Positions 5,062 through 62,069 of a stretch of DNA of 64,000 nucleotides are shown in pieces; the first letter of the stretch is position 1; each line of letters begins with the position of its first letter. The translations under genes were made by a program, and so were the position numbers. Source of the stretch: Chondrosia reniformis (Eukaryota > Porifera > Demospongiae > Chondrillida > Chondrillidae); assembly GCA_947172415.1 (NCBI GenBank), contig OX359201.1:1364001-1428000 (forward strand), given 5' to 3'. The notes below the pieces were generated by a model. The model was not told where the DNA came from. It was given only the letters and a program-made list of their open reading frames with translations, and searched no databases.

Positions 5062-8000
5062 TCATTTTTTTAAGTCTTCAAGGACATGTAAAACTTCAAA
5101 GTTAGGCTGGTTGTACTTTGGATTTACTAATGGCTGCATCTGTATAATGTATACAATACATTTACCACACAAGTATACAAGTATAAACATATATAAATAG
5201 TATATGTCACTCAGTGACTGAATAATCTATGATTAATAATCATCTGTGCAGCATTAATGCTATATAACCAGATGATGTTATAATTAACTCAAGCTTTTAA
5301 ATCAGTTATGTTTGCTTTAGAAACAATAAAATTTAATTATTATGGTGATCTTAATTGATTTTAACATATTGTATATACTTATAATCATTTCAAAGTAATG
5401 CAATAAAACTCCATACACAGAACTTACAGGTCTACAGTACATAGGTACGTACCAATGACATAAACCAACTCATTACCATGGCAATGGGGTGTAAATATCT
5501 GTATACATTCTCATTAAGGGTACAAATATCTATTATAACAGCAAGTCTGCAGAACACTTGAATATATATATATACATCTAGTATATAGTACTCTCAGTAT
5601 ATAACAATATACATACAGTACATAGTACCTCAAGATATAGTACATGTATATTGTACTCTTGGTGATACTCACCTCAGTATTATTATGGTCCTTCTGTTGT
5701 TTCAACTTAAAACAAAGAACAAGAATGACGAGAATAGACAGACCTAGCAATACCAAAAGTACCATTCCACCATTTACAAGGTATATGATTAGAAAATCTC
5801 TCTGAGAATCACTCGTGTTGTTATGAGGTCCATCATAAGAATGCACAGATATGGGATACCCAACCTCCAAATAACAAAGAAAGTTGGATGTGAAGAATTC
5901 ACATGTGTATATGCCTGGAGTATGGATGGTAGCTAAGCAGGAATAGGTCCCGTCAGCATAGTCCTTAAATCCTGTAATTGTGATATTATCCCTACAGGAT
6001 GAATGACGACTACATACACAACAATGTTGCTGTGAGGGAAGGTCAGAATGGAAAGGCCTGTAGCAGATACGACTGAATGATTCGGTGCGATAAGCATCAG
6101 TGGAACTGCACTGCAAGGTCGCTGTGCCAGTTTGGTCTAGTGTGAGGTTCTTAATTGTCTGGTGAATAGAAGGTCTTGGCTCTGGCTCTCCTAAGTCTAT
6201 TATACGGAAAATACAAAGACCAATTTATATACAGAGCCATGTAGCTTGAAACATTCATGAACATGTATCTAGCACTATAGTAATACTATAGTTATAAAAC
6301 CAAATAATTGAGATCATCTAAAAAGGTTTGTATTAATGCACACAACAGTCAAAAAGTATACACAGTACAAATCTGGCCAGTCTCATATATTCACTTATAT
6401 GGGTATGACATGATCAGTGTTATGTAACTGTTCAATTCACTTATTATAAGGCTATACTAATATACAAATTAATTCACTAACCACTTTTCCATTACTAGCT
6501 ATATCATTATATTATATGTACGTACTATTATGTAATGTACATACGTATGTATATAAATTAGCATAGCTGTATAGAAAACAAGAAATTAAAATTAAAACTA
6601 TTGCTACTTTCAATTTCATACAAACAAGCACTATACAGTAATTTTGGGTCAGTTGTCCAGACCAGACGTTGCAAATGGTAATTCGCAACTATACCATTTG
6701 AACAAACTTTCACTAAAATGACGTCATCATGCATGCGTTGATAACCTTTTACGATTAACGATTGCAATGCCCAGTGGACAACTGACCCAAAAAGTACTGT
6801 ACTCCATAAGTCTGTCTCAATGGACTTTACTTACTAACTCCATTGGAACCTATATGATTAGTCAAGTTAACAAAATTATATACATTTCAACCCTGACAAT
6901 CCAATCACCTGCTGTCTAATGAAGCCAGATAAATTCTCTATGTAGGTCACGTAGATAACTGGTTTATAATTACACTCAATCCTCCCTTATCCGGGCACCT
7001 TGGGACCAGGCACTGTCCGTAACTCAGAAAACTTGAAGAGTATAGCTGTTTTATATACAAATCATGTAAGGGATGATGCTTGCTGTGTGAGGAAAATGAA
7101 TTTCAAAATCGACTTCACACTTCGCAGCTGGACTAGTTAACTATTATTCACATTCTTGGCGATCAATAAAATCAGTAAACCCTTCAAAAATCAGCCTTCA
7201 AAAATCGCCATGAACGCAACCGTTGTCATTGCCATTTTGTTTACTTGCTGACTCGGCAACCACTTCATGCTGCCCGGTAGAGGGACGTGCCCATATCTGG
7301 GGCATCCGGATAAGGGAGGATTGAGTGTAGTAGGTTCAACTATGTATCCTAGTTGAGTATTAATGCACATTCCATATACGTATAATAATAACTTTGGAGC
7401 CGCCTTCAAGGAAGGAGGTTGAAAGTGGTGAGGCCTAAGCCGCACCAGCTGTTGTGTTTCGGACGGCCTTGATAATAATACTAATAATAATAACTTTGGA
7501 GCCGCTCTAGTCCATTGATTAATTAGGCTGCAGGATTTCATATATATTTCACACTTGTTTTTCTTTTCTGTTTTCATTATTATTATAATAATAATTTTAT
7601 CCACTCATTGTCAGGTTAATTTTATGTTAATTCAGTATTTTATTTTCGTGATTAGTTTTTCTCGCTTCATTTATTTATTGTACCATTAATTATTATTATT
7701 ATAATAATAATAATAATAAAAAAGGAAGCACTAGGCCAAGCTGGTCCCATGAGTCAATATATAACAAATATTTATATATATTATATAGTATATATATACC
7801 TACCAATTTCTACAATTCTATTGACACGAACACTTCCTAATATGTTCTCAGCTTTACAGGTGTAGATACCAGAATAAAAGTCAATGTCCTGAAGTGCATC
7901 AAAGCATAGAACCTATATATACAGTTAGAAAGTGAATTGAAAGAAATGAGTTATTGGTTAATTCTGCTATAGTGCACTGGTATTATAAATTATATACAGA

Positions 8001-10010
8001 TAGCTGTATTGCACAATATACAATTGTGTTTCCGGTATACAACACATGAAAAATTTACATCATTAGAAAGTTTATTCTAAGCAGAGATCAATCATAAGTT
8101 ACAAAGTTGCAGATTATGGGAAGTATATAACCTTGTTCTGACAGCTAGAATATTAGCTACGTATAGAGCATATCAGCTAGTATATATTATAGAGCATATA
8201 TCAGCTAGTACATATTATAGATTATATTAGCTAGTATATATTATAGATTATATTAGCTAGTATATATTTCGAACTAGTACGTAATTAGTCCATTAGCTGC
8301 TCCATACCATAAGCAATGTAATAATAGTAGGTGGAGTGGGTGCAGACATGGAATGTTTAAATGGCCTGCAAAGCCAAAATATAAACTGCATACATTAATA
8401 TTTAATTGCTGATTGACAAAGGCTTTCCATATCATTTCACACATAGATAAATATTAAACGTATAAGTACATACGTATATAGCTATATATGTAGTGGTGAT
8501 GGAAAAACGCACTTAGCCCTGTATATATAGAGATACTTTTCTATCTAAAAAGGCTCATTTCTGGGTTTTTGAGCACCTATATACGTATAACCTCCATTAT
8601 ATCCTGTAATGCCTCAGAAGCCATGGGTTAACCTATACATCTATATATATAGTATATTGTAACTTGCACTGTATATACGTGTATAATATATAAACCTTTC
8701 AAATATAAAGATATTCATAAAGGGGTGTTATTGCACTTACAGTTTTCTATGAAAGAGCAATTATAAACAATGAAATAACAAACCAAATATCTGAATATCT
8801 GAATCATAACAAACACACTCTTTTTCAACTCTCAGTAGATATCTTACTTGTCCATGGTTCCCTGCTGGAATTTGAAAAATTTCACTACTATTTTGTATTG
8901 CTATTACTTGCTCTGTCAGCCAACTTTTAAAGCTCCAAGTTATAAGAGGTTGTGGAAAGCCAGTGGCGTTGCAGTATATACACTGTACACAAGTATGCAC
9001 TACACTCCCCAACTCAAACCTCCGAGGGGAAAAGTACAACATGCCATCAATGTTGTAAACTGCTTCTGAAAAATTAACAGGAACTACAAGAGGGTAATGT
9101 AGAAACAATATAACTAAAATCCTATATAGGAACATGTGTAGCCAGCACAGAATAGTACATAACTATAGAGTAATTCATTGGCCTGCAAATATGCATCTAG
9201 CAATAGTTTATACATCTAAGTAGATGAAATGATAGGGGGTAATTTTAGTTGCGTTCATTATGAAAGATAAGTTTATTGGAGCTATCAGCAACAAAATTGA
9301 GCTAGATTGAACGTTTCGACCCGTTACTGCTGATGAAGACCTAAGGGTCGAAACGTTCAATCTAGCTCAATTTTGTTGCTGATAGCTCCAATAAACTTAT
9401 CTTTCATCTAAGTAGATGAATATAGAATTATCTATATACACAGTTTATGATACTTCTAGATACTTTTTAATATACAGGTACAGTATTGAACATACTTCAT
9501 GTACACATATATACACAGGACCTTATAATACCAATAATTCCCTAGTGGTCGATTTACATAATTGGTTCACACACACTGGCGCCTGCATTATTCTAGACTC
9601 ATTGTTAGCTCCTTACCAGGGCTGTCTACTTTAAGAACAAAACCTGCCGATAAAGCATTACATTTACAAGTATACACTCCTTTATCTTTGACACTAAGGT
9701 TCTTCAACAGGAGTACTTCTCCGTGCCTCCCTGTCACCTCGGCGCCATTGAGTTCCCAGTTATATTCGTCACACAGCAAATCTCCACTGTTTTTCGGACA
9801 ACTTAGGGTAACATCAAATGATATTAAACCAATACAGACTACGCTTTCTTTCCAACTACTCAAACAATACGACGTACTAATACTACTACTTTGGGTAAGA
9901 CAGTCTACGGTGTCTAGTTGATAAAATAAGAGTACAATACTAATAAGTGCTACACCTATACTTCTACGCTTTAATTTTAACATTAGCTCAGCAGTTCGTA
10001 GATGAGTCAT
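5062..10010 (-). CDS. Ig-domain transmembrane receptor with short NPxY tail, no death-fold domain
   Basis: Exons on the minus strand are 9617-10010, 8784-9083, 7804-7912, 5673-6196 and 5062-5139, giving about 467 residues. Starts are possible at 10043, 10010 or 9983; all precede one hydrophobic signal segment (GVALISIVLLFYQLDTVDC). Ig domain 1 shows the C...W...D.GVYTCKC pattern. Ig domain 2 spans exons 2-3 and ends in SGIYTCKAENILG. Exon 4 encodes a cysteine-rich membrane-proximal domain (CCVCSRHSSC), then a TM helix (GGMVLLVLLGLSILVILVLCF). The tail is about 40 residues and includes NPKY, an NPxY type motif known in other receptors to bind PTB domains or drive endocytosis. It is paralogous to the Ig-Death and Ig-CARD receptors downstream but lacks an effector domain, so it may be a decoy or co-receptor (inference). 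The exon 2/exon 3 junction does not keep phase with a GT donor, so that border is uncertain. Confidence 0.75.
6641..6793. mobile_element. MITE with about 19 bp terminal inverted repeats
   Basis: The left end ATTTTGGGTCAGTTGTCCA is mirrored by TGGACAACTGACCCAAAAA at the right end. It is about 150 bp long, non-coding, and lies in an intron of the minus-strand Ig gene. Confidence 0.8.
6971..7329. mobile_element. pogo/Tigger-like MITE
   Basis: The terminal inverted repeats begin TACACTCAATCCTCCCTTAT and are nearly perfect across about 24 bp. The CCCTTATCCGG core and TA ends resemble pogo-group (Tc1/mariner superfamily) non-autonomous elements. No transposase is seen inside. Confidence 0.75.
7384..7515. 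repeat. Repeat tail with duplicated segment and TAA-rich ends
   Basis: The segment ATAACTTTGGAGCCGC occurs twice (7388-7403 and 7491-7506), separated by a GC-rich block, with AAT/TAA triplet runs nearby. This resembles the 3' tail of a non-LTR element, but no coding part is visible. Confidence 0.4.
8165..8275. repeat. Short tandem repeat, about 27 bp unit
   Basis: The block AGCTAGTATATATTATAGA(TTATATT) is repeated about four times, imperfectly, in an intron. Confidence 0.6.
9260..9407. mobile_element. Foldback element, perfect 63 bp arms, with hammerhead-like motif at its centre
   Basis: The left arm (9260-9322) is the exact reverse complement of the right arm (9345-9407), with a 22-base loop between them. 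The loop and right arm together contain CTGATGA, a GACC/GGTC stem and GAAAC (9330-9354). It lies in the first intron of the minus-strand Ig gene. Perfect arms mean it is recent or is homogenised by conversion. Confidence 0.8.
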
Positions 10011-10116: not shown

Positions 10117-13100
10117 ATGTCAGATCAAAAGCGAAGCCTACAGCTACAAACAGCTCTATTGGGTCTTTTAATTTATTCACTGAAAGTGACCAGTGATTCA
10201 GGTATTGTATGTCCTCCAAAAAATCCTGGTGAGTCGGGGGCAACTGTCATAGTCTGAAGAGTCTAATATATCTGTGGATAGCTTGTCTATTCAGGTCATA
10301 TTAGCTTGTATTTCGGAACTGCAGCTGGCAATTGTATTATATTATGAGTTTTAGTGTTAGCGGAATTATACATAATGTGTAACTTAGTCTATGAGATTGA
10401 ATAAGGTAGCTTTGTTACGTACGCAGTTTGGCTGAAAGAAGATATATGTAGCCTGGATATAGTTCTGTGCGAAGCTGTCCCAGCTGTTTCATTGACGCTG
10501 ATTTGTGGACCGTGCTCTAACAAAACCATCCCCACACAGTGGAAGTATGTGAATGCAAATAGAACTAAGGATAAAACGACTGGTGATAATGAGCTTGTCT
10601 TACTAGCCTCAGAGATGGACCTTTCATCTGCCGGGTGCTATGAGTGCAAATGTGGGAACGAAGGTCTATTCTTTCGGGTCAATGTAAAGGCTTCAGGTGA
10701 GTAGATCTTATACCCTAAAATTATAAATGAAAAATAAAATTTCCCTATAAGCTTTTGTACAGAGTAGGCATTAGCATGTAGGAAAATGGTGTATTAGTTT
10801 TTTTGTATATCAAAATAAAGAAAAACTATCTTCTAGTGCTACTCTAGGTCTACAATATAAAGCTAAAACATGAAAAGTGAATCAAGTTAGTCACTGAAGA
10901 AGACCCCCAGGGTCAAAATGTCTGACAAACAAGAAGAGACAACAAAATTGCATCTTTAGATGCTCTAAAAATTGAAAGATGATCCTTTCAAAGATATGAA
11001 ATAAGTATTACATATAAATTGTAAAAAACTCCAGACACCCCTCAAAAGATGTTTGGTGTCCAAATTATAACAAATAACAATTATAACAGCCGTGGTATGA
11101 GTGATATATACTCCATCGTTTTTTATCGTTATTTTGGCGGGACTTTCAGGATGGCTCATCTAGCGTCTGGTTGGTTTTGCTTAAACGCTGACGACTTCAT
11201 AGAATGCTCTTGCCCTGACTACTCCAACTGTCCTAAATGTAAGGAGAATTGTCCACTCCCCAAAAGAAACGTCTTAGTTTACCATATTTGGGCAGGGATA
11301 TAACAGGATTTAAGAAGCCGATGCAGTATATAGCTTCTTAAATCCTGTTATATCACAGTTACGAAATTTAAACACAGGCGGTTGCCCTGGCAACAGTGTA
11401 TATAGATAAGCAATCATACTAGTATATCTTATACCCTTATAATTATGTATACAATTATACCTTAGACCTTCCCTAAAAATATATATGTAATTTTTTTAAA
11501 TTTATGTAATTACCTTATTATCCCCTTCAGTATTCTTTATCCTATTGATTTGTAGTGGCCCCAAAATTTGCTGTTAATAGTTATTTAGAGGAAGGATCTC
11601 AACGTATCTATGATATCGTTCCAAAGTTCAAGGGACTTGATCTAGACGGTGAAATGACTTACCCAGTTAATGTATCTATTGTGAACTGTTCCTATAAGAC
11701 GGATGCTTATCCAAGACCTACAGTTACCTGGAAGTATGAAAAGTTGAATGGTGAATTGCACAGTGCCTCCGAGAACCCATGTTTAGTGTCATTTGATTTT
11801 GATCAGGTAAATGAAACAGTAAAAATGTATGTGTCCCTGTAGTTGTCTACTTACTATGTATACATGAAACCTCATTAATTTGAAGCCTTTTGGTCGAGGG
11901 AAAGGCAAATATATACAGTATCTAGGCTGAATATGCCAAATTAAGTAGTTTATCAGGCCCGTATGCAGGGGGTTTGTTGGGTGTGTACGAACCCCCTCCA
12001 GGATCTGTGGTTCTTAAAATTCAGAACCTAACTGTTTTGTAGTCTAAGTCCTTACTGGGGCCTGAAGCATGTTTTTTAGAGTTTTGTTGCTCCGTTCCAG
12101 TATGCTATATGTGACCGTTTACACCGTATTCCACCATGCTATGACATCATCACCATGTTATGACATCATCACCTATCTACTTTTTCAGTAATTGATTTTA
12201 TGTACAATGAACATGTTACATACATTGCATTATTGTTCAAATAAGCATGAGATTTCATGTTACCTATGAAATTGTTTTTTCTTGCACGCTGTTATGACTA
12301 AAGAATTGCTTTATTCAACAAAACACCAAAATATTTTCTTTGCCAATGATTTTTCTTCCCAGAATGTAACCTCCCCTTTCAAAACCTTGCATACGGGCCT
12401 GCTTATTGATGCTGTATTTGCGTGTTACGGTTCCTGTTTCATGAATTTCATTAATGACATTGCATACATATGTTTGCTAACGTTTATATTGCAACTATTA
12501 TCGGTACCCGTACCCATTTGCTAATATAAGTTAAATAAAAACATTCAAAAATGAAGTTAAAAGTAGGGATGGCACTATAACAGTGATTGGCACATCTAGA
12601 AAATCATGAATATACTAGAAGTAGGGATTGATGCGCCCAAACATAGAAGTGATGTGTATAGTTAAGTTTCAGTATGCCACTTCTGCAATGTTAGCCTTAC
12701 CATATGATCACTTTCTTGTTTCGTTACTTTTTCTAGATGTATTGTATTGCTCCTTTTTTCTTGTTTTATTTGTTTTGAAAGTTTTCTTGGCGAAACTAGA
12801 AATAAAGTAGCAGAATAGACGATATAATAGAGAGCTCTAAATTAAAAAATGGCGTCCGAAAAGATCCCAAATTTGATAAGATGTTTTCTACCGTTCTTTA
12901 ACATTCAGTTTAGGATATTAAAGGGTCCATAATCGTTAAGAATACGACTGTATATAGCCCCTGCAAAGCGAATAAGAAATTCGATCGCGGGTAACGCCAG
13001 TACCACAAATATTACTCATTCGGGTTACTTATTTTATATACAGAGAATTTGAAACTTAATTAAAAAATGGCGTTCAAAGAGGCCCTAAATTTGGCACTTT

Positions 13101-16100
13101 CAAAAGTAACACGCTTCGAATGGAGCGCGTTGAAATCTAGGGTAGCCTATTCCCTAGTTCGGAAACATTCGTGACGATTTAGTATTTGTATGTACCTGCG
13201 TAAGTTCGCATGTTAGCGCTAGCTCATTTGAAAAAAGAAGAAGAAAAAATGAGGAATTGCAGAATTTGGCCTATTTCGGTTTAACCACTTTGCGAAGGTT
13301 GTAGAGCATCGTAACATGTTTTGGCGTTTAGAAAAGCATGCAAAAACGACTGCAAACACACGAATGCAACCGAAAATCTGAACGTTGTTGATTTATGAGG
13401 TGTTAATTGATAATACATTGAATAGGGCGGCCATGTTTTTTTTCGGCCACCCTACTTATAGAGTACTACCGTACTCTATGATATATAAAAACGAATCTTT
13501 GTTTAGCCAGCAATTTATGAAAATTTTGTCTTGCATGCATGTGTGAACATTACCCCGCATTTGGTATATTGAATATATAATATAATACAGTGGAATGAAT
13601 ACATTGAAGTATATATATAGAACACAATACTAAATCGAGTTTGTGTTAGTAAACTTCCAATTTTTCATCTTAAGCACGCATTAAGCATAATAATATATAT
13701 AAAGCCTACATTTGTGACCTTATAATCCAAAAAAGTTGTAAGGAATCCCTGAATCACCTATATGTGGAAAGCCCTTAATTTCTGGCCACAGTGGCTTGTA
13801 ATGGATTAGTTTTTAAGGCTACTAACTCTTGTAAGAATGTTTAGACCTTAGAAATATATAAACTGAAATTCCATAAGTTTGTATATACAGAGCTATTATA
13901 TGACCATAGATATATGACCATATACAGTATGTATGTTGTTCATAGGTTTCTATCAGCTCCAGTACACATATACCGTATTATCTCTAATATAAGCCCAGGT
14001 CTCTAATACAAGCCCGTCTCTAATACAAGCCCGTCTCCAATAGAAGCCCACCTTTAAGAGTTATCAAAAAATAGAAGCCCAGTCCCCAATATAAGCCCAC
14101 TGACACACTACTAAAGTACTTATCAAACATGCTGCTCTCTATAGTTTATGTGGAAATTGTCCCAACAAAGTTGATTTACCAATATGAATTGAAGGGTTGA
14201 AAAAATAAAAGCCCAATCTCTTATACAAGCCCAGTCTCCAATAAAAGCCCAGGCTCAGAGGGGTTTGAAAAAATACAAGCCCCTGGCTTATATTAGAAAT
14301 AATACGGTATCTACCAATTTTTAAAGTTTACTTTGAAGTTGTGGTATATGCATGTAAAACTACTTTTATCTACAGGTATTAAATGTTATATTGCCGCAGA
14401 TGAAACGAACCTTTTTAGACATTAGTTATACTTGCAATGTAACAAATATAGCAGGTTTCATAATTGGAAGACAAACCCTTCACTATAATAGTGAGTATTA
14501 CATTTTTACAATATCTATACCATAATTGATACGTACATTCTAAAAGTGTTTCATCGTAATTTATCCAATCACTAGTAATGATTTGTCTATATATCTCTGT
14601 ACATGTAGGTATTAATAGCTACTTTTTTAGACCTCACAGAGCCCAAAGCAGTGGCAATATCACCCTAAAGGAGAAGAATGAAATCAAAACTGGAACTGCC
14701 TTCTGTTCTGTCTATCCAAACCAACTATTGAGCCCAAACAAGCCACAGTATATAATATGCCGTTATGATCCCAGAATAACCATATCAAATGCTAGCTGCT
14801 TGGCCATAAGAAGTGATATTGCGGCAGATGATAAATGTTGTATTTGTGGGGATCCGAAATGTGATGAAACACTTAAATTGAACACAAGTATAGTCTTCTT
14901 GGCTGATTCTGCGGGATATGAAGCGAGGTCATGCAAAGTAGACTCTTTAGGTGTAACTGGTGATTTTCTATGTTTGGCTAAGAAGTTTAAACACAATCTG
15001 ACTGCTCAATATATTGGAAATTTTGCTTTCATTCATGTGGATCCTCCAGAAAACAAAAGTATTTCTTCAAATGAACTGACTATTCCATTGAAATATGCTG
15101 TTCCGGCCATGGCTGGGTGTGGAGTTATTTTTGCCGTGATGATATTAGTAGGAGTTTGCTGTTTTAAACATATTAAGGCAAAAAGACAGAAATATCAATC
15201 TTTAGCCATTAATTCTGTGTGCGATAGTGATCAAGTGTACACCTATAACCTCACAGGTAAAATTAACCACTGTAAACTATAGCACTTTGGTGTAATATAC
15301 GTATATAGTCATTTGACTCGATGTTCATGCAGTTTGTGCTCCTATATTTAGTACATTACCTGTATATAGTTATACTGACTATTGAGTTAAGTATATATAT
15401 GGTTATATATTATTGTATTACTAATACATATGTTTGTTATCGTTGTTTTGTGCCTCATAGGGCAGTTTGGCCCTAGTGCTGGTGAGCATGTTAACAATAA
15501 TATTAATAATATATGCATACTCTTACACTTACTTATACAGTATCTCCTAACTTTAATTCTTATAAATGTAATGTATTTCATTATTAAAATGCTACAGTAT
15601 ATATCCGTTCATTGTGCAGCCATGAATTCTCCCATGTTAAAAGATTTACAGAAGAAGGAATGCCAATTGGAAGATCTGATAGATGTCATTCCTCACTTCA
15701 TGGCGGACTGGCAACTAATTGGACTAAAATTAGATATGAAGACATCAGTCAACAACTTGCGCAACAACGGAAAGGACAACAGAAATAACTGCACTCAACT
15801 GTTTGAAGAGACACTTGAGCAGACAAGCTTGACTTGGGGGAGACTGTTTAAGATTCTTAATGATTTGGGAAAAATCACAATTATCCAACAGATTGAAAGG
15901 GAACTTGTGGAAAAAAGGCATCGTTCTCTGACTCAATCTTCCGCTCAGACCTTTGGAAATGGTGACCCTCAACAAGACAGATCCACATCTGCTGCAGCTA
16001 GAGCAGAGATTGAAGAGCTCCCATTTGACCGGAGAAACACAAAAGCCCCCAGCTTAGTTAACGAGTTTGAAGTTGCTTCTCACACTAATGGTAAAAGTGA

Positions 16101-16188
16101 TGCTAGTGGAAAAGATGGTGATGCAGAGAGTGATTGTGATGGTGACAGTGTAGGATCTGATGCACCTCTCCTATTAACTTCAAATTAA
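10117..16188 (+). CDS. Ig-TM-Death-domain receptor
   Basis: Seven exons keep phase: 10117-10201, 10427-10696, 11556-11806, 14376-14490, 14609-15256, 15461-15481 (7-residue microexon) and 15620-16188; 652 residues. The signal peptide is around LLGLLIYSLKVTSDS. Ig 1 is on exon 2 (C...W...AGCYECKC). Ig 2 is split over exons 3-4 (C...W...ISYTCNVTNIAG). Exon 5 carries a cysteine-rich membrane-proximal domain with CCICGDPKC and a TM helix at about residues 402-426. The last exon encodes a six-helix Death-type domain, about residues 478-560 (LEDLIDVIPHFMADWQLIG, then TWGRLFKILNDLGK), and an acidic Ser/Gly-rich tail. Death domains recruit adaptors by homotypic binding, so this is probably a surface receptor signalling to a death-fold adaptor (inference). 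It pairs head to head with the Ig receptor on the other strand, and its large intron 3 has collected transposons. Confidence 0.85.
10893..10996. repeat. Repeat fragment with hairpin and GACC/GGTC motif
   Basis: It contains CTGAAGAAGACC....GGGTCAAAATGTCTGAC and a following TCTTTAGATGC block. Related pieces lie at 36441-36592 and 56897-56920. Confidence 0.45.
11300..11355. repeat. Short hairpin, about 20 bp arms
   Basis: TATAACAGGATTTAAGAAGC is followed after a short loop by its reverse complement. It lies in an intron of the Ig-Death gene. Confidence 0.6.
11954..12401. mobile_element. MITE with CAGGCCCGTATGCA ends
   Basis: The left end CAGGCCCGTATGCAGG pairs with the right end CTTGCATACGGGCCTG. 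It is about 450 bp, with no coding capacity, and lies in intron 3 of the Ig-Death gene. Confidence 0.75.
12528..13481. mobile_element. Non-autonomous foldback DNA element, copy 1
   Basis: Its body matches, in opposite orientation, the element at 16526-17694. One end carries a partly lost long hairpin (GTAGGGATGGCACTATAACA). The other end is the near-palindrome AGAGTACTACCGTACTCT, with CGGCCACCCTACTTAT just inside it. A GAA-rich run lies in the middle. It has no open reading frame of note. Confidence 0.75.
13971..14309. mobile_element. MITE with TACCGTATTAT ends and internal tandem repeats
   Basis: TACCGTATTATCTCTAATAT at the left is mirrored at the right (ending AATACGGTA). Inside, an approximately 18 bp unit (TCTAATACAAGCCCG) is repeated several times, imperfectly. 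It lies in intron 3 of the Ig-Death gene, 67 bp before an exon. Confidence 0.8.
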
Positions 16189-16525: not shown

Positions 16526-17694
16526 CATAGAGTACGGTAGTACTCTATAAGTAGGGATGGCCGAAAAAAAACATGGCCGCCCTATCTAATGTATTATCAA
16601 TTAACACCTCGTAATTCAACAACGATAGGATTTTCGGTTATATTCGAGTGTTTGCAGTCGTTTTTGCATGCTTTTCTAAAAGCCAAAATATGTTTCGATG
16701 CTCTACAACCTTCGCAAAGTGGTAAAACCGAAATAGGCCAAATTCTGAAATTCCTCATTTTTTCTTCTTCTTCTTCTTTCTTCTTCTTCTTCTTCTTCTT
16801 CTTCTTCTTCTTCTTCTTCTTCTTTTTTCAAATGAGCTAGCGCTAACATACGAACTTACGCAGGAACACCCAAGTACTAAATCGTCATTAATGTTTCCGA
16901 ACTAGGGAATAGGCTACCCTAGATTTCAACGCGCTCTATCCGAAGCGTGTGACTTTTAAAAGTGCCAAATTTAGGGCCTCTTTGAACGCCATTTTTTAAT
17001 TAAGTTTCAAATTCTCTCTATATAAATAAGTAACTCGAGTTAGAAAAATTGGAGGTACTGCCGCCCCCCGCGATCGAATTACTTAGTCCCTTTGCAGGGC
17101 CTTTATACAGTCGTAGTCTTAACGATTATGGAGCCTTTAACATCCTAATCTGAATGTTAAAGAACGGTAGAAAACTTATTGTACAAATTTGGGATCTTTT
17201 CGGACGCCATTTTTTAATTTAGAACTCTAGCTTATATCGTCTATGAATCTGCTACTTTATTTCGAGTTTTCGCCAAGAATACGTTCGAAACAAATGTTAA
17301 CTAGAAAAAGGGGCAATACAAGTTAAATAAAAACATTCAAAAATGAAGTTAAAAGTAGGGATGGCACTATAACAGTGATTGGCACATCTAGAAAAAGTAA
17401 CGAAACAAGAAAGTGATCATGTGGTAAGGCTAACATTACAGAAGTGGCATACTGAAACTTAACTATACACATCACTTCTATGTTTGGGCGCATCAATCCC
17501 TACTTCTAGTATATCCATGATGCGCCCAAACATAGAAGTGATGTGTATAGTTAAGTTTCAGTATGCCACTTCTGTAATGTTAGCCTTACCACATGATCAC
17601 TTTCTTGTTTCGTTACTTTTTCTAGATGTGCCAATCACTGTTATAGTGCCATCCCTACTTTTAACTTCATTTTTGAATGTTTTTATTTAACTTG
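16526..17694. mobile_element. Non-autonomous foldback DNA element, copy 2, with a 376 bp palindrome
   Basis: The left end is the near-palindrome AGAGTACGGTAGTACTCT. The middle has a long CTT/TTC microsatellite (about 16758-16826). The right end (17319-17694) is a giant palindrome with arms of about 175-180 bp and a loop near 17495-17516. Copies are at 12528-13481 and 33812-34571. The structure is asymmetric: a hairpin at one end and a short palindrome at the other. Confidence 0.8.
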
Positions 17695-17849
17695 TATATA
17701 TACAAACATGTATGAAATGCCACTATAAGGCCTAAGGTTATATAGGCATATATATAAAATATTGAGAAAGAGAAAGATCTAAGGATTCAAGGAATTCGAA
17801 GACTTCAAATTCCCTTGTCACTTATCAATGGTGGTTTTCCTAAAATCGC

Positions 17850-31400: not shown

Positions 31401-33084
31401 GCGTCTTATTCAGTAATCATGAGTGCATGGTTGTCTTCTGAAAGTGGGTGTATGTATGCATATACATATGTGTAATGTGCATGTCTGTCAATACATGTGC
31501 ATGTGTGCATGTGTGTCATCTCTTGGCTCTTCTTCACTTCAGTTGTGTGTGATCCTTCATGTGCAAATGGTGTCTGTGTTTCTAATGACACTTGCCAGTG
31601 TGCTGACGGATACAGTGGGCCTACATGCAACATTCCAGGTAATTTCTCTGCATGCACCATGTAACATTGTATATATATATAATGGGCCTCTGCTTGCATA
31701 TACGTACGTATGTTAATTTCTCTACACCAGCATATAATATTGCTATGTCTTTATATAATTATGCTGGAAAATATCCTATTAGGTTTATCAGAGTCCATGC
31801 ACAGTGTTTAAAATACTTCTTTGCTTTCATCTCATGAATAATCTCTTTGCTGTGCAGTGTATACGGACTGTGACCAAAATGTGTGTCAAAATGGAGGCAC
31901 TTGTATGCAGCATATCTTTGAGTACACATGTGAATGTCCTCCAATGTACAGCGGGCCTTTCTGTGAGGATGGTGAGTATACTAGCATATTTACATATATG
32001 CATAACTGTACATGTAGCTGCAGTATTCTTCACTTTCCCAACGTATGTATTGTAACCTTAAGGGTTTATGTGATGAAGATCATTTATTGATATTGAATTC
32101 ATCATTTCTTGCAATGTTGAATGCAACATTCTTCACTTTGTTTCACTTCCCTATAATATATAACTTTGTTACACTTTCCTATATATATATAACTTTGTTA
32201 TACTTCCCTATATATAACTACAACTACCCATGCTACAGGTTCCGATGCCCAACCTCAGAATATTGGTGCTATAGTAGGAGGTGTGCTGGGTGCTGCCATT
32301 CTTTTAGCTTCAGTGGGGTTGTTACTGCTACTAATCAAGAGTGTGGTAAAAGATTGTAAAGCAAACAAACTGTTGTGAGTTTCCTCATCACCTATACTCC
32401 AGCATGGCCTGTCGGATTATCTATGCACTTTCTATGGATGGATATCTGGATGCATCATTATATGCATCACTATATACTGCAAAGTGTCATAGTATGCTGC
32501 ACGTCTTGCTTATATATGAGCCTGTGGTATATAGAATTTGTGTAATCCTAGCTAATTATGTGCACTTTGTAATGTACTTCACAACTTACTTGTCTGAACA
32601 ATTACTTTCAGGTAGCTAACAAGTCAAAATAGTGATCTGCTCTCTCATCCACCCCCTCCTCTACTCTTTACTTCTTTCTGTGTTATATAGCTCTCTCAAG
32701 TATGACACAGCTGATCAACAGAGCACTCCTGCAGGAAAAGGTATGACATTGTTACAGTAGCAACTTGTATATAATAGTCAACTCCTGTATAGCAGAAGGT
32801 AGCTAGTGTTTCATCGCATCCTACTTTGCCCAGAAACGTTTGCATGTATATATATATGCTGCTCCCTATTCCCACAGTTAATGTTATTATATATATATAG
32901 GCAGTTAGCTATTACAATTCCATTTCCATCACTATTACATTGTATTTCTCTATTGCATTTTCAACAATTTCCATTGCAATTCAACATTCATCACTGTTAT
33001 TCAGTTATTACATGATAAGTCATTTCTTTTCAAATCTCTCCAGCTTCAGATGAATTCCTCAAGATTGGCGACACAAAAATGTAA
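19447..33084 (+). CDS. SUSD2/MUC4/mesh-type adhesion protein with duplicated IPT-IPT-AMOP-VWD-EGF block
   Basis: Twenty-five phase-consistent exons give 2099 residues: 19447-19584, 20457-20710, 20982-21160, 21714-21814, 22236-22507, 22648-22806, 23105-23145, copy 1 (23616-23879, 23981-24271, 24410-25019, 25293-25627, 25896-26453, 26722-26979, 27179-27274), copy 2 (27991-28245, 28354-28644, 28783-29392, 29667-30001, 30267-30824, 31093-31350, 31543-31638), then 31858-31971, 32239-32374, 32691-32740 and 33044-33084. It begins with a signal peptide and an unnamed region starting HFRGASIQW. Each block has two IPT/TIG folds (NPLSGHRAGGSIITV; SPRGGNMLGGTPITI), an AMOP region (QQCCYDSNGVLL), VWD (FGDPHIVTLDGHQYTFNGKG), a SUSD2/MUC4-like segment (SLFYYKD) and an EGF. 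A second EGF, TM helix and 45-residue tail follow copy 2. All junctions of the block are phase 1, so the duplication keeps the frame. Likely cell adhesion or barrier function. A two-gene model is possible but less simple. Confidence 0.8.
22839..23023. mobile_element. MITE with ACTGTAAAGCC-type ends
   Basis: ACTGTAAAGCCCTTAATATT at the left is mirrored, with mismatches, by AATATTAATGGTTTTACAGT at the right. It is about 185 bp and lies in an intron of the adhesion gene, just after the donor at 22807. Confidence 0.65.
23265..27570. repeat. Tandem duplication, unit 1 (about 4.3 kb)
   Basis: This block and 27611-31905 match nearly base for base, introns included. The left border is near TTAATTCAAAGTCT and the right border is inside a second EGF exon, after CACTTGTAG. 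The high intron identity means the duplication is recent or maintained by conversion. Confidence 0.85.
27520..27600 (+). pseudogene. Truncated EGF exon at the duplication breakpoint
   Basis: It follows a good acceptor (CTGTGCAG) and reads VYSVCGRNVFQNGSTC, matching the intact EGF exon at 31858-31971. Similarity then stops at the duplication junction and a stop follows 10 codons later (RRYILLGNIT). If spliced in, it would end the protein early without a TM segment; skipping it keeps frame. Confidence 0.6.
27611..31905. repeat. Tandem duplication, unit 2 (about 4.3 kb)
   Basis: This is the partner of 23265-27570. Differences are few: for example, a 9-base loss in the first IPT exon (28201 region) and scattered substitutions in the VWD exon. 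Confidence 0.85.
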
Positions 33085-33811
33085 AGCATAATTATGGGCT
33101 ATATGTATATATATAGTATATATATATAGACTAATAGAATTAAATTAAAGAGATCAGGCATTTATATTCCTATTGTTTACACTATATTCTTGTAGAAAAA
33201 TGTTTAATAACCTCCAATTCGCCATATTGCTAAACACACTAATGCAGCATGCAGTGACCATTTAGATTTTATGGCTCTGTAGTGAGATAGTGCATGTGAC
33301 AGTCAGATGACAAGGTTACTTGCCTGCTTGCACACTATATTATAAATTAAGAAGCAATAAAATAATGTGGAAAATATATTGTGGCCACAAAGTACTCGGG
33401 ACGCAGCCAACCCAATTTCAAATATTAATTTTACACATGTATGTAGTCCTATATATATAGTGGCTGGCTGCTGCATGTACGTACATAAGTGATGTGAATG
33501 CACTTATATATAGGTATACAACAAAACAAGAAGTTATATAATATATTGGCAATTGTTTGTGTCTCCTAGCTGGCTGCATAGCATGGCATGGCATATATTA
33601 TATATGCAAAAATGGCAGATTTATAGCTAGAAACGCGGAAAACTAAAGGCTAATATAAAATGTCGATATTTGGCAAAGAGTACAGCTCAGACAGATAGCG
33701 GAGATATGATATCGCTTAAAATCAAAAGTGCGTGTTCCTTAGGGGACATGAAAGGGCAGGAGTAATTAATATGATGATGATATGGAATTTCCCTTGTTGG
33801 AAATAATATAA

Positions 33812-34571
33812 CTAGAGAACAATAAAAATCTTCTACAAAAATAGTGAAGATGTAGGGATGGCACAAAAAGCACAGAAACAAGAAAGGGATGTTACACAGT
33901 GAAGCATTAGCTATATATGCATGAATCATACAACACCCTTGCTTGTAGGATTCATGCATAGCTAATGCTTCACTGTGTAACATCCCTTTCTTGTTTCTGT
34001 GCTTTTTGTGCCATCCCTACATCTTCACTATTTTTGTAGAAAAATTTTATTGTTCTCTAGTTTCTGTACTTTTTATGGAGCATAAGCTAGGAATTCGTTG
34101 TATTTTAAACCACTTTGGTTTTGCAATTTTCGACTGATTATGACGTCATTAAAATGGCGAATTTATTGAATCCTTGACTCTTGGGCCACGAAAACCGTCA
34201 TGCTCAATAATGAAGTAATCGCTCTCGCTTCTACAAAAGAATACAGCGCGGAAAATTTAGAGTATTTTCGCTTTAGAAGTACGTAGTCCGAAAGCTTGTT
34301 TCCTTTTTTAGTTATAGCGAGCGAAGAAGATGAAGATGAAGATGAAGAAGACAAAAATTGGAATTTTTAAGTTTATTATTTCGCCAGCGGGACATATTCG
34401 CTTGCCTTTAAGGTCTATTTAGAGTATGTATATGGTATATTTAGCTATACATAGCCTTCTTTTGTCGATTTCCGGCCTATTTCGGGATTTTGCTCCTATA
34501 CCGATGTATGGGGAAAAAACGAAAAAACCCGCGTCATCCCTACTTAGGGAGTACTACCGTACTCCCTGATA
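33812..34571. mobile_element. Non-autonomous foldback DNA element, copy 3
   Basis: A long palindrome (33812-34060, arms over 110 bp) is followed by a body with a GATGAA microsatellite (about 34328-34350) and the end palindrome GGGAGTACTACCGTACTCCC. The layout and the TAGGGATGGCAC motif are shared with 12528-13481 and 16526-17694. It lies 117 bp upstream of the first Ig-CARD gene. Confidence 0.75.
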
Positions 34572-34687: not shown

Positions 34688-37600
34688 ATGGGTACAAAGT
34701 TAAGTCTTTTGATAAATTTAAACTTTTTCCTGGCAACATGTCACTTCGGTTTCGTGACGGCCTATGGAGAGTGCACTAATACGACCGGTGGTAAAGTCTG
34801 TTCTTTTCCAGCAGAACATACGCCGTCAAACCTGTGTAAGACTTGTACGGACGACGTCCATTTCTCTTTTAAATTTACATTGCTAGATAATCGCATATAC
34901 AGCTCGCACTGTAATAATTGTCATTAACTATACGCATGTGTTTCCTTTTAACGCCCTTCGCTACATAGATTCGAAAGTCTGTAGCGACGGAGAAAGCGGA
35001 ATTACGTTCTTTTGTGAAGCAGTTACTGATGTTGAAATGGACTTAAATGCTGGGGATTGCAGTGCTCAACCGGATAATATTTCTTGGTGGTATAGTTCAA
35101 ATTCTGGGACTACCTGGAGTAAAGTGGGAAAGGGCGGAATGAAACAATTGGACCTTCCAGCAAAGGAAATGACGAATAAAAAGTCAGGATGTTATAAATG
35201 TAATTGTACGAATGCCATTAAAGACACATATTTTAATGTTACTGTTAAGGAACCAGGTGAGTAGTACATTAATACATCTACATATTATGTACTACAATTT
35301 GCAATGAAATATGTAATCATGGTAATCCCCTCATCCTTCCTATTTGCAACCTCTGGATATAGTGGAAATATAATATTATTATGTTTTGCTGGGTAAGTAT
35401 ACAATACCTTTTTGGTCATATATATTTACTACTTGGAATTGCTTATTAAACACAGCTATATCATATTGCCAGAGCAATGAGCTAATGGGGGAAGGGGGAG
35501 GGCTTATCCTACCTATACAGCGTGAATTGCCAATTAATTGGATATATGATGTGTAGCTATATATGGGGTATAAATCAGTTACAGCCCAAAGCCCATATAT
35601 GAAGCCAGGGTGGATATACATGTATAATACACCTTTATCTTTTTCTAGTTTCTCCTAAACTCTTGGTATGTCACAATGCCAGTACTGGATCTAACAATTT
35701 CACCTTGTGCCCGCAGCCTTTGGAGCCACATTTGAATAGGAGTTCAATTGGCATCATCTGCATCCATGCAAATTCCACCGGTTATCCAGAAGTTGCATAT
35801 GAGTGGGAGTATAGCAGTTCTGAGACAGACTGGAAGTATGTTAGTATGATCCAGTTAGCTTGTATCTTTTCACCAATTGATGAGACATCTAAAGTCCATG
35901 TGAGTTTGCAATGCTTTAAAGTATATTTTTATGATTACTTGCATTATAGGAGTGTGACCAGCTGTGTATCAGGTACATACCCTTGAGATAAATGGGACTG
36001 TTGTTGTATGGTATATAACATTATTAGTTATCATAACAAACCGCTAAGGTCACTTACGTACAATGATTTGTAAACCTGATTCATTAGAGTTTATATGTAA
36101 ATTATACTATTTTAATCACTGAAAATGACTGCTGACTTGTTCTATATACTGTGTACATAATAATATATATGCAATGCTTGATGTTGCCAGACCAGCTATG
36201 CATGATTTTAACCTCATTACGTGTGTGCCACTGCACCATGCTTTTTATATAGAATGAAACTGCATGCTTTGTGCCTACTTGTGAAAATTACAAAGTAGAT
36301 GTGATAATCAATTATAAGTGCTCCATCAGCAATTTGAATGGATCAATTACAGTCTATCAGACTATGAATATCAGTAGTCTTGGTGGGTTTAATTATTAGA
36401 TATCGATAATAAGGAATTCTTTTGATTGCATCAAACCTATCTTTCAGATGCTTTATCTTTCATCTTTTGAGCATCTAGTGACAAAAGACGAGTCACATGA
36501 AGAAGACCCACCATGGTCAAAACATCTGACAACTTTTCATAAACAAACTGCATACATTTTTAGATGCTCAAAAGGGATGAACCATCTGAAGGATGAATTT
36601 ATAATTATTTATAGAAAGAACTTTCTGAATGATATTGCCTAATTATAAATCTGGATATTTTCATTACTTTTTATTTAGTAAGAGATAACATCTGGTTTAT
36701 CCGTCCTGACTTTCATGGAACATTTGGTGACATTCTACTTAAAAGAGTAAATAGCTTTTATAAAGCTGACGTAATAACTGCCGCCTTTTCAGAGAGTGAT
36801 AGTCCAGTTTTGTATACATTTTGTTTTCTACCTGAAGATGTAGCCAAGACAATATCTTCTGATGACGAGATAGTTTGTTGGTTTGCCAGGTCTGACCTTA
36901 ACAATAAATTTAAGCAGTACTGTAACTGTCAATGTCCATTAGCACCAGATCACTCAAGGGTACAAAAAAGCAGAAACTGTGACATAGATGAAAAATCTAA
37001 AGTAGCACTTTCAACAACTGAGTTTACTGACAAATTAGGTCTGGTAAATGTTGCTTGTCAAGCAAATTACACCTCCTCTTCCTTCAAGACCATCAAAGGT
37101 GTTGCAATTGGACAGCGTGTCATAGAATCAAATGTATATTCAGCCCCCCAATTGCTAAGCAGTTTTGTATTAAAAATGGAACCGAAAAAGGAAAAGGTTT
37201 TGAACAACATAGATTGGGCAATGATTGGATTAGCTGGAGGTCTATTACCCGGAATTCTATTAGCAATTCTATGTTTTTGCATCATTTGTATATGTATTTA
37301 TCAAAAAAAAGGTAAGTATATATTACAGTATAATTAACTTACTAAATAATGTAAGTGATATAAATTTTGTAATACTTCTTTTCTGACCAGCCTCTAAAGG
37401 AAAAAGCCCAAATATTGACCAAGATAAAATTTATTGTAAGTTAAACATTGATTAAGTTATTACAGATTATTCAAACATATGTATTAATTACGTATTAATT
37501 GTATATAGACCAAAGCACTGAATCTGAAAGTACACCTTTAATTACAGAGGGTAAAAGCGGTGAGTTATTCATGCATACATATAGTATCAAAGTTAATTCT

Positions 37601-38590
37601 TGGGCTTATCAATGGCAATAAATTGAATTATAAACATATCTTTTTCATATAAGTCCTCATTAGGTATGTATATGTTACGTTTATTATATTTATAGAAAAT
37701 AAGGGATCAAAAACAGATAATGTGAATATTCCTAAACCAAGAGTGGTGTTTCATGACACAGAGAACAGTGATCCGATTGAAGAAGTTCTTCAATCCTCTA
37801 CTTCAGAATCTGCTCAAAATGATTCAAGAGTAATTTTCAATAAGACAGTAGTGATTAGATCAAGTAGAAATTATATATTCAGATTAAGTGACATTTCACA
37901 AGGTACACTTGACCTCAAAGTGGTGGCCCAATTGCAAGGTTTGTATATAGCTGTATGCATGCATGCATGATTATAAAACATCCCATATATAATACAAATT
38001 AAAATCTATATTTAATTGTATATAGACTATGATTTATCTTTGACTGGTTCAATGAAAGACCTATCAAACTCTGTTAAGAGGGGGAAAGGTATAATATAAC
38101 TACTTAAGCATGACATTTCTAATATCATTTCTAATATTAACTTATATTCAAAACTGTATTGTTTATATATGTACGTAACACATATATGCTACGTATATAC
38201 AGTATACTCTACTGTTTTATACATAATTTAGAGCTAAAGCAGAAAGTGAAGGGTAAAGCATCTGATATACTAAGGGGCTTGATATTGGATGCCCACATGT
38301 GTGCTCTTATAGAACAGGCAGGTCTCTTGAATGACGATGAGTCAGAAAGGCTGAAACATATGCTATCAGTAAAAAAGGAGCCACGTCAAGATATTGTAAC
38401 CTACTTCCGTTTGGTGATGGATAAATGGCCACTCGGAGTGTACCATTCTATGATTAAAAAACTTTGTATAGCCTTGCGTAATCATGGTGATATGTCAAAT
38501 AGAATATTGGGTGATCAACTCTGGAGAGACCTGGATCTTTCTTCAAGTGCCACAAGCAGTGACGAATTTTATGATGCCAATACTCATTAA
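34688..38590 (+). CDS. Ig-TM-CARD receptor 1
   Basis: Ten phase-consistent exons give 721 residues: 34688-34790, 34969-35256, 35649-35899, 36253-36382, 36679-37311, 37391-37435, 37509-37559, 37696-37938, 38026-38088 and 38232-38590. There is a signal peptide (LLINLNFFLATCHFGFVTA), then Ig 1 on exon 2 (SGCYKCNC) and Ig 2 over exons 3-4 (CIHANSTGYPEVAYEWEY, then YKCSISNLNG). Exon 5 has a cysteine-rich membrane-proximal domain (YCNCQCPL) and a TM helix (AGGLLPGILLAILCFCIICI). Four small cytoplasmic exons follow, then a last exon with a six-helix death-fold domain that fits CARD best (MCALIEQAGLLNDDESERLK, then YHSMIKKLCIALRNHG). Exon phases match the next gene, its closest paralogue here. The CARD suggests coupling to CARD adaptors or caspases, which is inference. 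A Death or DED assignment cannot be fully excluded by eye. Confidence 0.85.
36441..36592. mobile_element. Small inverted-repeat element in receptor intron
   Basis: TTTTGAGCATCTA is mirrored by TAGATGCTCAAAA, and CTTTCAGATG by CATCTGAAGG. The middle holds TGAAGAAGACC...GGTCAAAACATCTGAC. A related short hairpin is at 60361-60416. Confidence 0.6.
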
Positions 38591-38739: not shown

Positions 38740-39125
38740 AAAAGATAAAATAGAGAAGAATAAATGGATGTTGATGGTGTGCGTGGACTTGCAGAAAGCA
38801 TACGACAGAGTGATACTATGACAAGTGTTGGAGGCATACGGAGTATAGATCAGAATGTATGCTATAGATCATGATATGTAACCATAGATCCTGATCTATA
38901 AATATACAATTCATGTATCATGATGTATGATTATAGATCGTGATCTATCATATATCACATTTTTGATCTTTTTTTCTACAAATGGTGCCCCATAGTTGGT
39001 GAGGGGAGACTGTGGGCAGGCAATGAGATTTCATGTATGTGAGCTGCAACATTTGTGTGAGAGTACTAGGGACTGGTTTGGAGTAGAGCAGGAACTGAGG
39101 CAAGGCTGTGTAACGTCCCCTTAAA
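38740..39125 (+). mobile_element. LINE reverse-transcriptase remnant
   Basis: Bases 38775-38812 read VCVDLQKAYDRV, the conserved RT motif of non-LTR retrotransposons. A second piece after 39000 continues in RT-like sequence (CVRVLGTGLE) with stops. An ATAGATC/GATCTAT-rich block (about 38840-38960) interrupts them. It is dead and sits between the two Ig-CARD genes. Confidence 0.65.
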
Positions 39126-39290
39126 CCAATTTCCGGTCTGATGCAGTAACATCGGACAGGAAGTTTATAAATTTAATACAGCTAATCCTATATAGACTGA
39201 CATCTTGGTTGAAGGGATTGACGAGTGTATATAGGTAAAGGCAGGCAGGATAAAGGATAAAGTATTTATTAAACTATCATCTTCGCCATC

Positions 39291-42200
39291 ATGATCAATG
39301 TCGCCATCATTGTGGCTATCGTCGTTGCTAGCTATAGCCTAGGCCTGTTACCATTCTTCTCCAGATCTCTGTGTACTATAGCGTTTATGCTCCCTGCAAC
39401 GGAGAAAGTAACATGTGAAGGCTCACATAAATATGGTGAGACCACTCACATTTGTGCCAGTATATATCGATCTGGTCTGCATGAATTTACCTTTTTACAG
39501 AGGATATCCCAAACATGTGCAGCAAAGACGTCGCGAAGTGCGAGGCCGCTGTAAACATTACTCTTGAGTTGGAAATAGGCGTGTGCCCACCTGGAGTATG
39601 GATAAAGTGGTTTCGTTTTGATACCAATCAAAACGCATGGAAAGAATTGTCTGAAAAAACTCTCAATAGTGGTACAGTCATTTTTTTTCCTCCTAATGAG
39701 GTGTCTACTCATATGACCGGCTGCTACAAAGCAAACTGCAGTTACGATGATGAACAGCTTGCGGAGTACTTTAATCTTGTCGTAAAGCCAGCAGGTATGT
39801 ATTACGTACGAAGAACTTAATCATAGTGAACAACATATATACGCATATATACCCTAAGGTTGATCTGGAGAGCAGGATTTGCCAGCTGTGTAACTGTGGT
39901 GCAATAGAGGACTCCACTCATTTTATTACAACCTGTCCAGCTTTCAATCATATAAGATGTAATCTTTTTGCTGAATGCTCACTTTTATCCCCTAACTTCT
40001 ACTCTTACCCAAGTATCCAAAAAAACCACTTCATCCTAACATACCCAAATCAAAAGATCTCAAATTATATTTACAGTATGTACATTCATCGTAAATCTCT
40101 CACTCATTCTCACTAATTTTTGTTCCATAAAGGTTTTGTAATACATACACCCTCCCTGCATGGCCCTGGAAATGTATACCCCCTGCTAGTGACTTGTAAA
40201 CCCACCATGGGTTGGGCTATTTCTGACTGATTTTTTTTTTCAGAATAGCATGTCACATTAATAAAAATCATTATTATTATTATTATATACAGCAACGTAC
40301 GTATACGTAGCCATATGCACGCACCTGCTACGCTAAGAGTGGAATAAATATGCATCCAAGTGTCATTTATGCATGTGGTACCTTTTATAGTGCTCCCAGA
40401 ACCAATTGAAATGATAAAGGTTGAGAAACACGAAAAACCTAACACATTCATATTGAAAAATATCAAGCCAGTATTCAAGAAAGGAAGTAGTGGTGAAATT
40501 TGCATTAATGCTACCAGCATTGGTTGGCCTACTCCTAAATACGAGTGGTTTATCAAGCATCATGAGCAGGAAGATGATAAGTATATAAAAATAACTAACA
40601 ACTTGGCATGTACTTATGTTAAGGTAAGTTCCTATAATGCAGTTGTATTATACCTTCCACATGCACAATGTAAAGTAGAGTGTTATGTAATATAGCTTCA
40701 TGCGCACATGTAATTTGTGTTTGTTTAATTTTTGTGGTTTGTAAATGGGTGAACCTTTTAATCTGGGAGTTTCCCAGGATAACTAACTTTTAATGATATT
40801 CATTGATTTGAGTGGGTGTACGTCGAGCAGGTATATACCCTTCACCTTCTTGTGAGAAAATATCTGCAATATAAATGTATTCATTAGCTGAAAGCTGATA
40901 TAAGCTACTTGTTAATAGGATATTAGCTAGCTGTATAACCTCAATAATTAATGATTATTGAATATACCTGTAGACTCCAGAAAGTGCTTGCTTCATAGTC
41001 ACATGCAACAACTATAAAGAGGATCATATAATGGATTTTGAGTGCAAAGTAACCAACATTGCTGGCAGTATAACAATCAGGGAAACACTCAATCTATCAA
41101 GATTAAGTAATTAATTGATGTGTTGTATATAATATATCATGTGTGCTTTATAATTACTGCATAAACTGTCACATTAACTAATTATAAATGTATAGCTAGA
41201 AAAGCAATATGGCATTTCAGTTGTTATGTTGTAATGAGTCTCTCTGATTGTGTGACTGATTTTTTTACATATTAGGAACTCAGAGTCCATGGTTCATAAA
41301 AGGTGTCCCAAATATCCAAAGTCAGGGTGATATTACCTTAGACAAAAGCAATGGCCTTTACAAAGGTACTGCACACTGTGCAGCCATTGGCAGCCGGCTT
41401 CACCATGAAAACGCTATGAGTTATTTTGTCTGTGAAGTAACAAAGGATGCCATAGCAAAAACTTTACCCTGTTTGTTATATAGACAGTTAACTAATGCCT
41501 GCCTGCAATGTCCTGATAACCCTGGTATCAAAGTAACAGCTCCTGATAACACCTATAACCTTTCTTATGAAAAAATACCTGATGATGAAACTGGTACTGT
41601 TGCAAGTTGTAAGATGTCATATGCTACAAGAAATAAAGAAAAAAGTAATAGAGTGTTCATGTGTATAGCTGCTGAGAATAATAAAGCTACTGATAATTCA
41701 GATTCAGATTCCTTTCCACAAGAAATTGCAATTTTTTCATTTAATTCAACTAAATTAAATCCATCAAATATTATTAGTGCAATTGTTGGAGGAGTACTTG
41801 GAGGCCTAGTTGTACTTTATATAATAATTATCAGCGTGATCTACATAATCAGACGGAAAAGGATTACTCCTAGCAGTAAGAACACTATATATATATGTAT
41901 GCACATGTGCATAAAATACGTATAATAATAATATACCCGAGTTGCTTCCATTGTGTGTATTTTTAAATCATTGCATGCATGTTTAATTTATAAATTATGC
42001 ACCATGCACTTTCACATGTAAGATTCTAACTGTTTCCTAAATAATTAAGATATACGTGATATGGGTGTTGTGCATGGATTGTAAAAGAATGTTTATAATT
42101 ATATATTAAATATTAATTTCTTTGTGATGTAGCACCAAGTATTCCTGGGACTCCTTCAACGATCGCGAGTGATCGTGATGAAAGAGGTAAAAATCATTGT

Positions 42201-42941
42201 AACAGAAGAATACTTATATGTATATACATACTGTAACATTTAATGGAACCTTGTCTTTTCTGAATGTATATTAATAGAAACTATTTCTAGCAGCTATGGA
42301 TCAACAGATTCAACTCTACCATTATCCAGTTACAGTGAGCATTGAATATATACGTATAGGCATAACATGTAGTTCTGCTTATATAATAATCATTAATTAA
42401 CTTTTTAATAACTATATTTCTCTGATCTATCCATGCAGCCTCATCAATAAGTGATACATCTGAAAATACAAAACTAGGGGAAGGTAATTAAATTATTAAA
42501 TTTATATAATCCTTTTGCATATAAGTTACCTTTTAGGGGCAGACCCACTAGTTTTTTTAATTCAAAACACCTGTTTTGTTTGCAGAACTACGAGTCATAG
42601 TAAACAATGCAAGATGGCAGAGACTCGTAAAAGAAAATCTCTACATTGATTGTGATATGATGGCTAAAATGAAGGAGAAATGTCTTCTAAATGATGAACA
42701 GTATGTAAGGCTGCTGGATATGATACGAAATAGGACTGAGAAACAAGACATTGCAAATGCCTTTTTGAATATTATGGAACAAGATTGGTCAAGAAATATT
42801 TTCCTTGAGCAGTTAAAAACGTTAACAAAAATCCTCAGTGAAACAGAAGACAGAGGAAACAAATACTTAGTTAAAAAATTCCAACAAAAACTTAATGATC
42901 ATGGGATACACAACGAACTGAGTACTAGTTCAAGTTATTAG
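39291..42941 (+). CDS. Ig-TM-CARD receptor 2
   Basis: Nine phase-consistent exons give 638 residues: 39291-39435, 39501-39794, 40391-40623, 40974-41106, 41276-41875, 42133-42186, 42278-42334, 42439-42483 and 42586-42941. The N-terminus is hydrophobic (NVAIIVAIVVASYSLGLL). Ig 1 is on exon 2 (WIKWF, then TGCYKANC). Ig 2 spans exons 3-4 (YEWFIK, then FECKVTNIAG). Exon 5 has the cysteine-rich membrane-proximal domain (CLLYRQLTNACLQC) and a TM helix (IVGGVLGGLVVLYIIIISVI). Three Ser/Thr-rich microexons lead to a last exon with a CARD-like domain (MMAKMKEKCLLNDEQYVRLL, then FLEQLKTLTKIL). The sequence aligns with receptor 1 through the LLND motif and spacing. The two look like an old tandem duplicate: same order, phases and direction, but diverged in sequence. 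The ligand is unknown. Confidence 0.83.
39836..40290 (+). mobile_element. LINE 3' end with ATT tail
   Basis: Bases 39862-39945 read ICQLCNCGAIEDSTHFITTC, the CCHC-type C-terminal knuckle of many LINE ORF2 proteins. A 3' UTR-like part and an ATT triplet run at about 40268-40287 follow. It is 5'-truncated, as is usual for LINEs, and lies inside an intron of Ig-CARD receptor 2. Confidence 0.7.
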
Positions 42942-62029: not shown

Positions 62030-62069
62030 AAATTGGAAGTATATACTGCAGACTCTTTAGATACCAAGG

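Follow-up and report, generated by a model that had tools for sequence, protein, structure and literature searches.

Four genes, here called g1 to g4, are present in the window (the whole 64-kb stretch of Chondrosia reniformis DNA that was analysed) and encode putative receptors with a common plan, in which a signal peptide, called by eye, is followed by two Ig domains, a cysteine-rich domain, a single TM helix and a tail (Table 1). The original prediction of four receptor genes built in this way was confirmed at the sequence level, each gene being found where it had been placed, with an open spliced model and blastp homology to the others; g1, which was expected to end in a short tail, does so, 37 aa beyond the TM in the exon model. 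The exon models were assembled by hand from the sequence, with splice sites picked to fit; all 26 introns (four in g1, five in g2, nine in g3 and eight in g4) have GT..AG borders, and the reading frame is open throughout. Since the sites were picked to fit, the models give an open, phase-consistent path and are not a proof of splicing.

Intron phases are the same in the four genes, namely 1 between Ig1 and Ig2, 0 within Ig2 and 1 between Ig2 and the cysteine-rich domain; the last exon is entered at phase 1 in g2, g3 and g4, and the tail exon of g1 at phase 0. Comparison of the proteins by blastp gave E values of 2.8e-33 for g3 and g4, 2.5e-16 for g2 and g3, and 1.6e-14 for g2 and g4; g1 matched g2 at 1.8e-7, g3 at 0.003 and g4 at 0.028. 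Judged by this similarity the four genes are clustered, strongly diverged paralogues (22-32% identity), and tblastn revealed no clear fifth copy within the 64-kb window. The first two genes are arranged head to head and the other two head to tail; the short gap between the start codons of g1 and g2 is possibly a shared promoter, which would allow their joint expression.

Table 1. Features of the receptor cluster, with positions in the window
Feature	Position	Strand	Description
g1, short-tailed receptor	5062..10010	-	5 exons, 446 aa; 37 aa tail
g1 exons	9617-10010, 8848-9083, 7804-7912, 5673-6196, 5062-5139	-	hand-built model
g1 TM helix	5709..5765	-	aa 391-409; Kyte-Doolittle mean 3.27 over 19 aa
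Gap between g1 and g2 start codons	10011..10116	.	106 bp, divergent genes
g2, receptor with Death-like tail	10117..16188	+	6 exons, 652 aa
g2 exons	10117-10201, 10406-10696, 11556-11806, 14376-14490, 14609-15256, 15620-16188	+	hand-built model
g2 TM helix	15109..15165	+	aa 415-433; Kyte-Doolittle mean 2.57
g2 Death-like domain	15661..15903	+	Pfam Death match within last exon
g3, receptor with CARD-like tail	34688..38590	+	10 exons, 736 aa
g3 TM helix	37242..37298	+	aa 461-479; Kyte-Doolittle mean 3.08
g3 last exon, CARD-like	38232..38590	+	homology to g4 last exon
g4, receptor with CARD-like tail	39291..42941	+	9 exons, 638 aa
g4 TM helix	41794..41850	+	aa 442-460; Kyte-Doolittle mean 2.92
g4 last exon, CARD-like	42586..42941	+	predicted structure and PDB fold matches

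The window contains other features besides the receptor genes. Between the g1/g2 and g3/g4 pairs lies a tandem duplication of ~4.0 kb (23382-27373 and 27759-31746, 95.6% identity), and TIG and VWD domains are encoded in this region. Inverted or self-palindromic repeats (12742-13483/16523-17321, 17316-17697 and 33810-34062; 89-97% identity) resemble small non-autonomous transposons, and one arm is located within intron 3 of g2. A long single-exon frame at 44882-46627 gave a WSC match of 27.0 bits, against a Pfam cut-off of 27.8; on the minus strand, the frame at 60893-62056, with a start that by eye is signal-peptide-like, matched the poly A polymerase head domain above the cut-off (profile positions 1-23 of 126), a nucleotidyltransferase-like motif being odd in a secreted-looking protein.

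Ectodomains and cytoplasmic tails

The Ig domains are recognized by Pfam in g1, where Ig_3 (3.2e-10), I-set (2.6e-9) and Ig_5 (1.5e-6) are above the cut-off and cover both domains; in g2 the Ig_3 match is under the cut-off (E=0.0093), and Pfam gave no Ig match in g3 or g4. Profiles built from all four proteins, g1 included, matched PDB Ig proteins, with carcinoembryonic antigen at 5.8e-11 for Ig1 and neuroplastin at 1.4e-7 for Ig2, and a profile from g3 and g4 alone found no Ig protein in the PDB. The Cys and Trp columns are conserved in the Ig alignments of the family; Ig1 of g4 is without the usual YxC cysteine and keeps the adjacent one. Since g3 and g4 alone give no Ig match and the four-member profiles contain g1, the Ig identity of these two proteins is one by homology. 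The claim of two Ig domains in each receptor is thus upheld by the g1 matches and by the four-member profiles, but g3 and g4 are not matched by themselves. As far as can be judged from sequence, all four proteins belong to the immunoglobulin superfamily, g3 and g4 by homology and by the conserved Cys and Trp columns only. For the cysteine-rich membrane-proximal domain, the profile search of PDB sequences produced no meaningful match, the proteins retrieved being unrelated and the best E 0.54.

The tail of g2 had been predicted to be a Death domain. The Pfam Death family (PF00531) matches its last exon over nearly the whole profile (2-85 of 86) with E=0.0015, but the score, 19.1 bits, is under the cut-off of 22.6, and E is 0.052 when the whole protein is searched. 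None of 10 control sequences (nine shuffled, one reversed) gave a Death match, the best E to any family being 0.017; on the other hand, an evidently spurious NCBIfam match to the g4 exon scored E=0.0012, so that a value around 0.001 is not proof of a Death domain in g2. The single-sequence model of this exon was poor (pLDDT 58.9) and its fold matches were uninformative, the FAS Death domain being at rank 14 of 14 with E 9.7; profile comparison with the tail pair of g3 and g4 gave a probability of 0.9%, that is, no detectable kinship. On the near full-length match, the g2 tail is a predicted Death domain.

Most known animal CARDs are found in cytosolic sensors and adaptors. The last exons of g3 and g4, for which CARD-like domains had been proposed, are homologous to each other (tblastn 2.0e-4 and 6.8e-4; 28% identity). 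Pfam CARD matched neither of them, a profile of the two tails found no CARD among the PDB sequences, NCBIfam gave for the g4 tail weak matches to unrelated bacterial families only, and PADLOC returned nothing for the tails of g2, g3 and g4. The AlphaFold2 model of the g4 exon, obtained from a two-row alignment, has a pLDDT of 84.9 and a pTM of 0.74 (the five models span a pLDDT of 66.0-84.9); it contains seven helices, the first two of which represent a split first helix (2-5/8-17), and a split first helix is a feature of CARDs. When this model was compared with the PDB by Foldseek, 9 of the 25 matches had CARD titles (ranks 1-5, 7, 9, 11 and 12), including RIG-I, CARD8, NLRC4, SP100 and ARC, and none of the 25 was named as a Death, DED or pyrin domain; another CARD is probably present at rank 23, in the CED-4/CED-3 chain. 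The nine CARDs superpose loosely on the model (rmsd 3.4-9.8, TM-score by target 0.14-0.62), and the top TM-score by target, 0.72, was obtained with 6k9f, an entry whose whole title is “unknow protein 4”; three de novo designs and other unrelated helical proteins are also present in the list. No single match is significant, the best E being 0.57; given this value and the loose superposition, the support for a CARD is the consistency of the match list. What stands of the proposal is the predicted fold, with CARDs at the first five ranks, and not a match at the sequence level, either in Pfam or in the PDB; the predicted structure of the g4 last exon is a confident helical bundle with a split first helix, and its best PDB match is not significant. 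The tails of g3 and g4 are described here as predicted CARDs, this call and that of the g2 Death domain being made with moderate confidence. Possible sorting or tyrosine motifs were noticed by eye in the tails of the family.

Alternative readings of the tails and of the family

The tails of g3 and g4 might instead be other helical bundles that matched CARDs by chance, as the high best E value, the loose superpositions and the presence of unrelated helical proteins, three de novo designs among them, would allow; however, the first five ranks are all CARDs, over a third of the list (9 of 25) carries CARD titles with no other death-fold domain of the Death, DED or pyrin kind named, and the first helix of the g4 model is split as in CARDs, which makes this reading rather unlikely. 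As to whether the tails are joined to the receptors, the frames that contain the last exons of g2, g3 and g4 run without a stop over 265, 149 and 126 codons, each stretch including some intron, and these lengths were matched in 0, 0 and 1 of 2000 mononucleotide shuffles, respectively (300 bases added on either side, three frames). AATAAA/ATTAAA hexamers are present in the introns preceding the tails (at 5337 in g1, 15583 in g2, 37617 and 37998 in g3, and 42105, 42487 and 42495 in g4) and downstream of g1 (4918) and g3 (38759), and none is found within ~310 bases downstream of g2 and g4; short isoforms are therefore possible. The intronic hexamers, together with a stop which read-through would meet 8 codons (the split one counted) beyond the TM exon of g2, could also indicate that the last exons are separate genes or alternative ends, the receptors being plain Ig surface proteins; yet the junctions into the last exons are GT..AG and phase-compatible, and in g3 and g4 a series of short cytoplasmic exons (45-243 bases) runs into the last exon, with sites picked to fit in both cases, and we regard such a separation as highly improbable.

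Other alternatives leave the architecture as it is and change its role. UNC5 netrin receptors share with g2 the theme of an Ig ectodomain and a cytoplasmic Death domain, and the family could consist of dependence-type adhesion or guidance receptors in which the Death domain would serve survival and not immunity. UNC5 proteins are, however, defined by TSP1 and ZU5 beside Ig and Death, and the Pfam list of g2 comprises Ig_3, Death and ig only; with TSP1 and ZU5 not found, membership of this family was rejected, and the CARD-like tails do not fit an UNC5-like role, which is very unlikely. Membership of the Ig-TIR/IL-1R group was rejected as well, a TIR match being found in none of the four proteins (Pfam, E up to 10, HMMER filters on). 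Clustered Ig-type surface receptors with varied tails, as at this locus, are also known from Hydractinia (Alr) and Botryllus (fuhc), clusters that are not known to include death-fold tails. By analogy, g1 to g4 might form a polymorphic self/non-self locus similar in role to Alr and fuhc, with tails that would kill or reject on mismatch. The clustering of strongly diverged Ig paralogues (22-32% identity) and the presence of both short and signalling tails are in favour of this, and rejection often involves cell death; but among the literature matches listed (title and start of abstract) none ties such receptors to sponge allorecognition, and the comparison is one with a single haplotype. Allorecognition of this kind, which would in part use the mechanism preferred below and differ from it in the ligand, seems unlikely.

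Comparison with known receptors and proposed mechanism

The statement of the original prediction that Ig-TIR receptors are known in sponges agrees with three reports (PMC6208332, PMC7308585, PMC12909245). Similarly to those of Amphimedon, Aplysina and Dysidea, which have been proposed as innate receptors, g2 to g4 combine Ig domains outside with a predicted cytoplasmic signalling domain (PMC6208332, PMC7308585); unlike them, they show no TIR match and have Death- or CARD-like tails instead. The further statement, by which Ig joined to CARD would fall outside the standard animal architectures, has to be qualified, since Table 5 of PMC6208332 contains a Dysidea avara gene, TR154561_c0_g1, described as “Gene containing Ig domains and a CARD domain”, which was upregulated (logFC 10.5) 1 h after exposure to microbial molecules. 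This gene resembles g3 and g4, with their predicted CARDs, in having Ig and CARD within one sponge gene, and the combination has thus already been published, if only as an entry in a table; the likeness is with the description in that row, which is silent on a TM helix, a cysteine-rich domain, clustering and Death-tailed sisters (PMC6208332). For D. avara, 39 CARD domain genes and 128 DEATH domain genes are given (PMC12909245), and a figure legend on Halichondria panicea puts CARD and IG among receptor domains (PMC8242945). In amphioxus, TNFR-caspase and other “direct connection” hybrids likewise lead from surface recognition straight to a cell-death domain, but differ from the receptors described here in ectodomain, effector and host (PMC2575513).

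No description of a receptor cluster that combines Death, CARD and short tails was found among the literature matches listed, in a coverage without most subscription journals, and the occurrence of Death-like, CARD-like and short tails in one paralogue cluster looks new. Pattern searches with the CARD pair in viral contigs (50 matches, 0 confirmed) and with the cysteine-rich/TM exon of g4 in genome contigs (160 matches, 0 confirmed) say little, the collections being viral and prokaryotic.

The reading that we prefer, and hold to be moderately probable, is that this paralogue family comprises single-pass surface receptors that signal by clustering their death-fold domains, in the manner of the sponge Ig-TIR receptors but with another domain in place of the TIR. 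The ectodomain would bind a ligand, whether microbial, from the matrix or on a cell surface, and binding would cause the receptors to cluster; the clustered CARDs or Death domains would then recruit partners with the same kind of domain, candidates being CARD caspases or CARD adaptors and MyD88/IRAK/FADD-like Death proteins, and the output would be NF-kB-type or cell-death signalling. The short-tailed g1 could act as a decoy, an adhesion partner or an inhibitory member. From their architecture, an immune or self-recognition function may be proposed for the four proteins. Since g2, g3 and g4 all enter the last exon at phase 1, exon shuffling could exchange tails with the frame intact. A more speculative extension, put forward only tentatively, is that the locus works as a set of tail cassettes, in which one Ig family exchanges phase-1 last exons (Death, CARD or none) and couples the same class of recognition to different death-fold pathways, possibly in sponge self-recognition with paired activating and inhibitory members.

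If the preferred reading is true, Ig-CARD and Ig-Death receptors would link recognition at the cell surface to caspase or NF-kB signalling with no layer of adaptors in between, and such direct wiring would occur in the sponges, a phylum reported to be without canonical TLRs (PMC7308585). The cluster would then be a natural set in which the type of ectodomain is roughly constant and the tail is varied, so that the evolution of receptor wiring may be tested within a single family.
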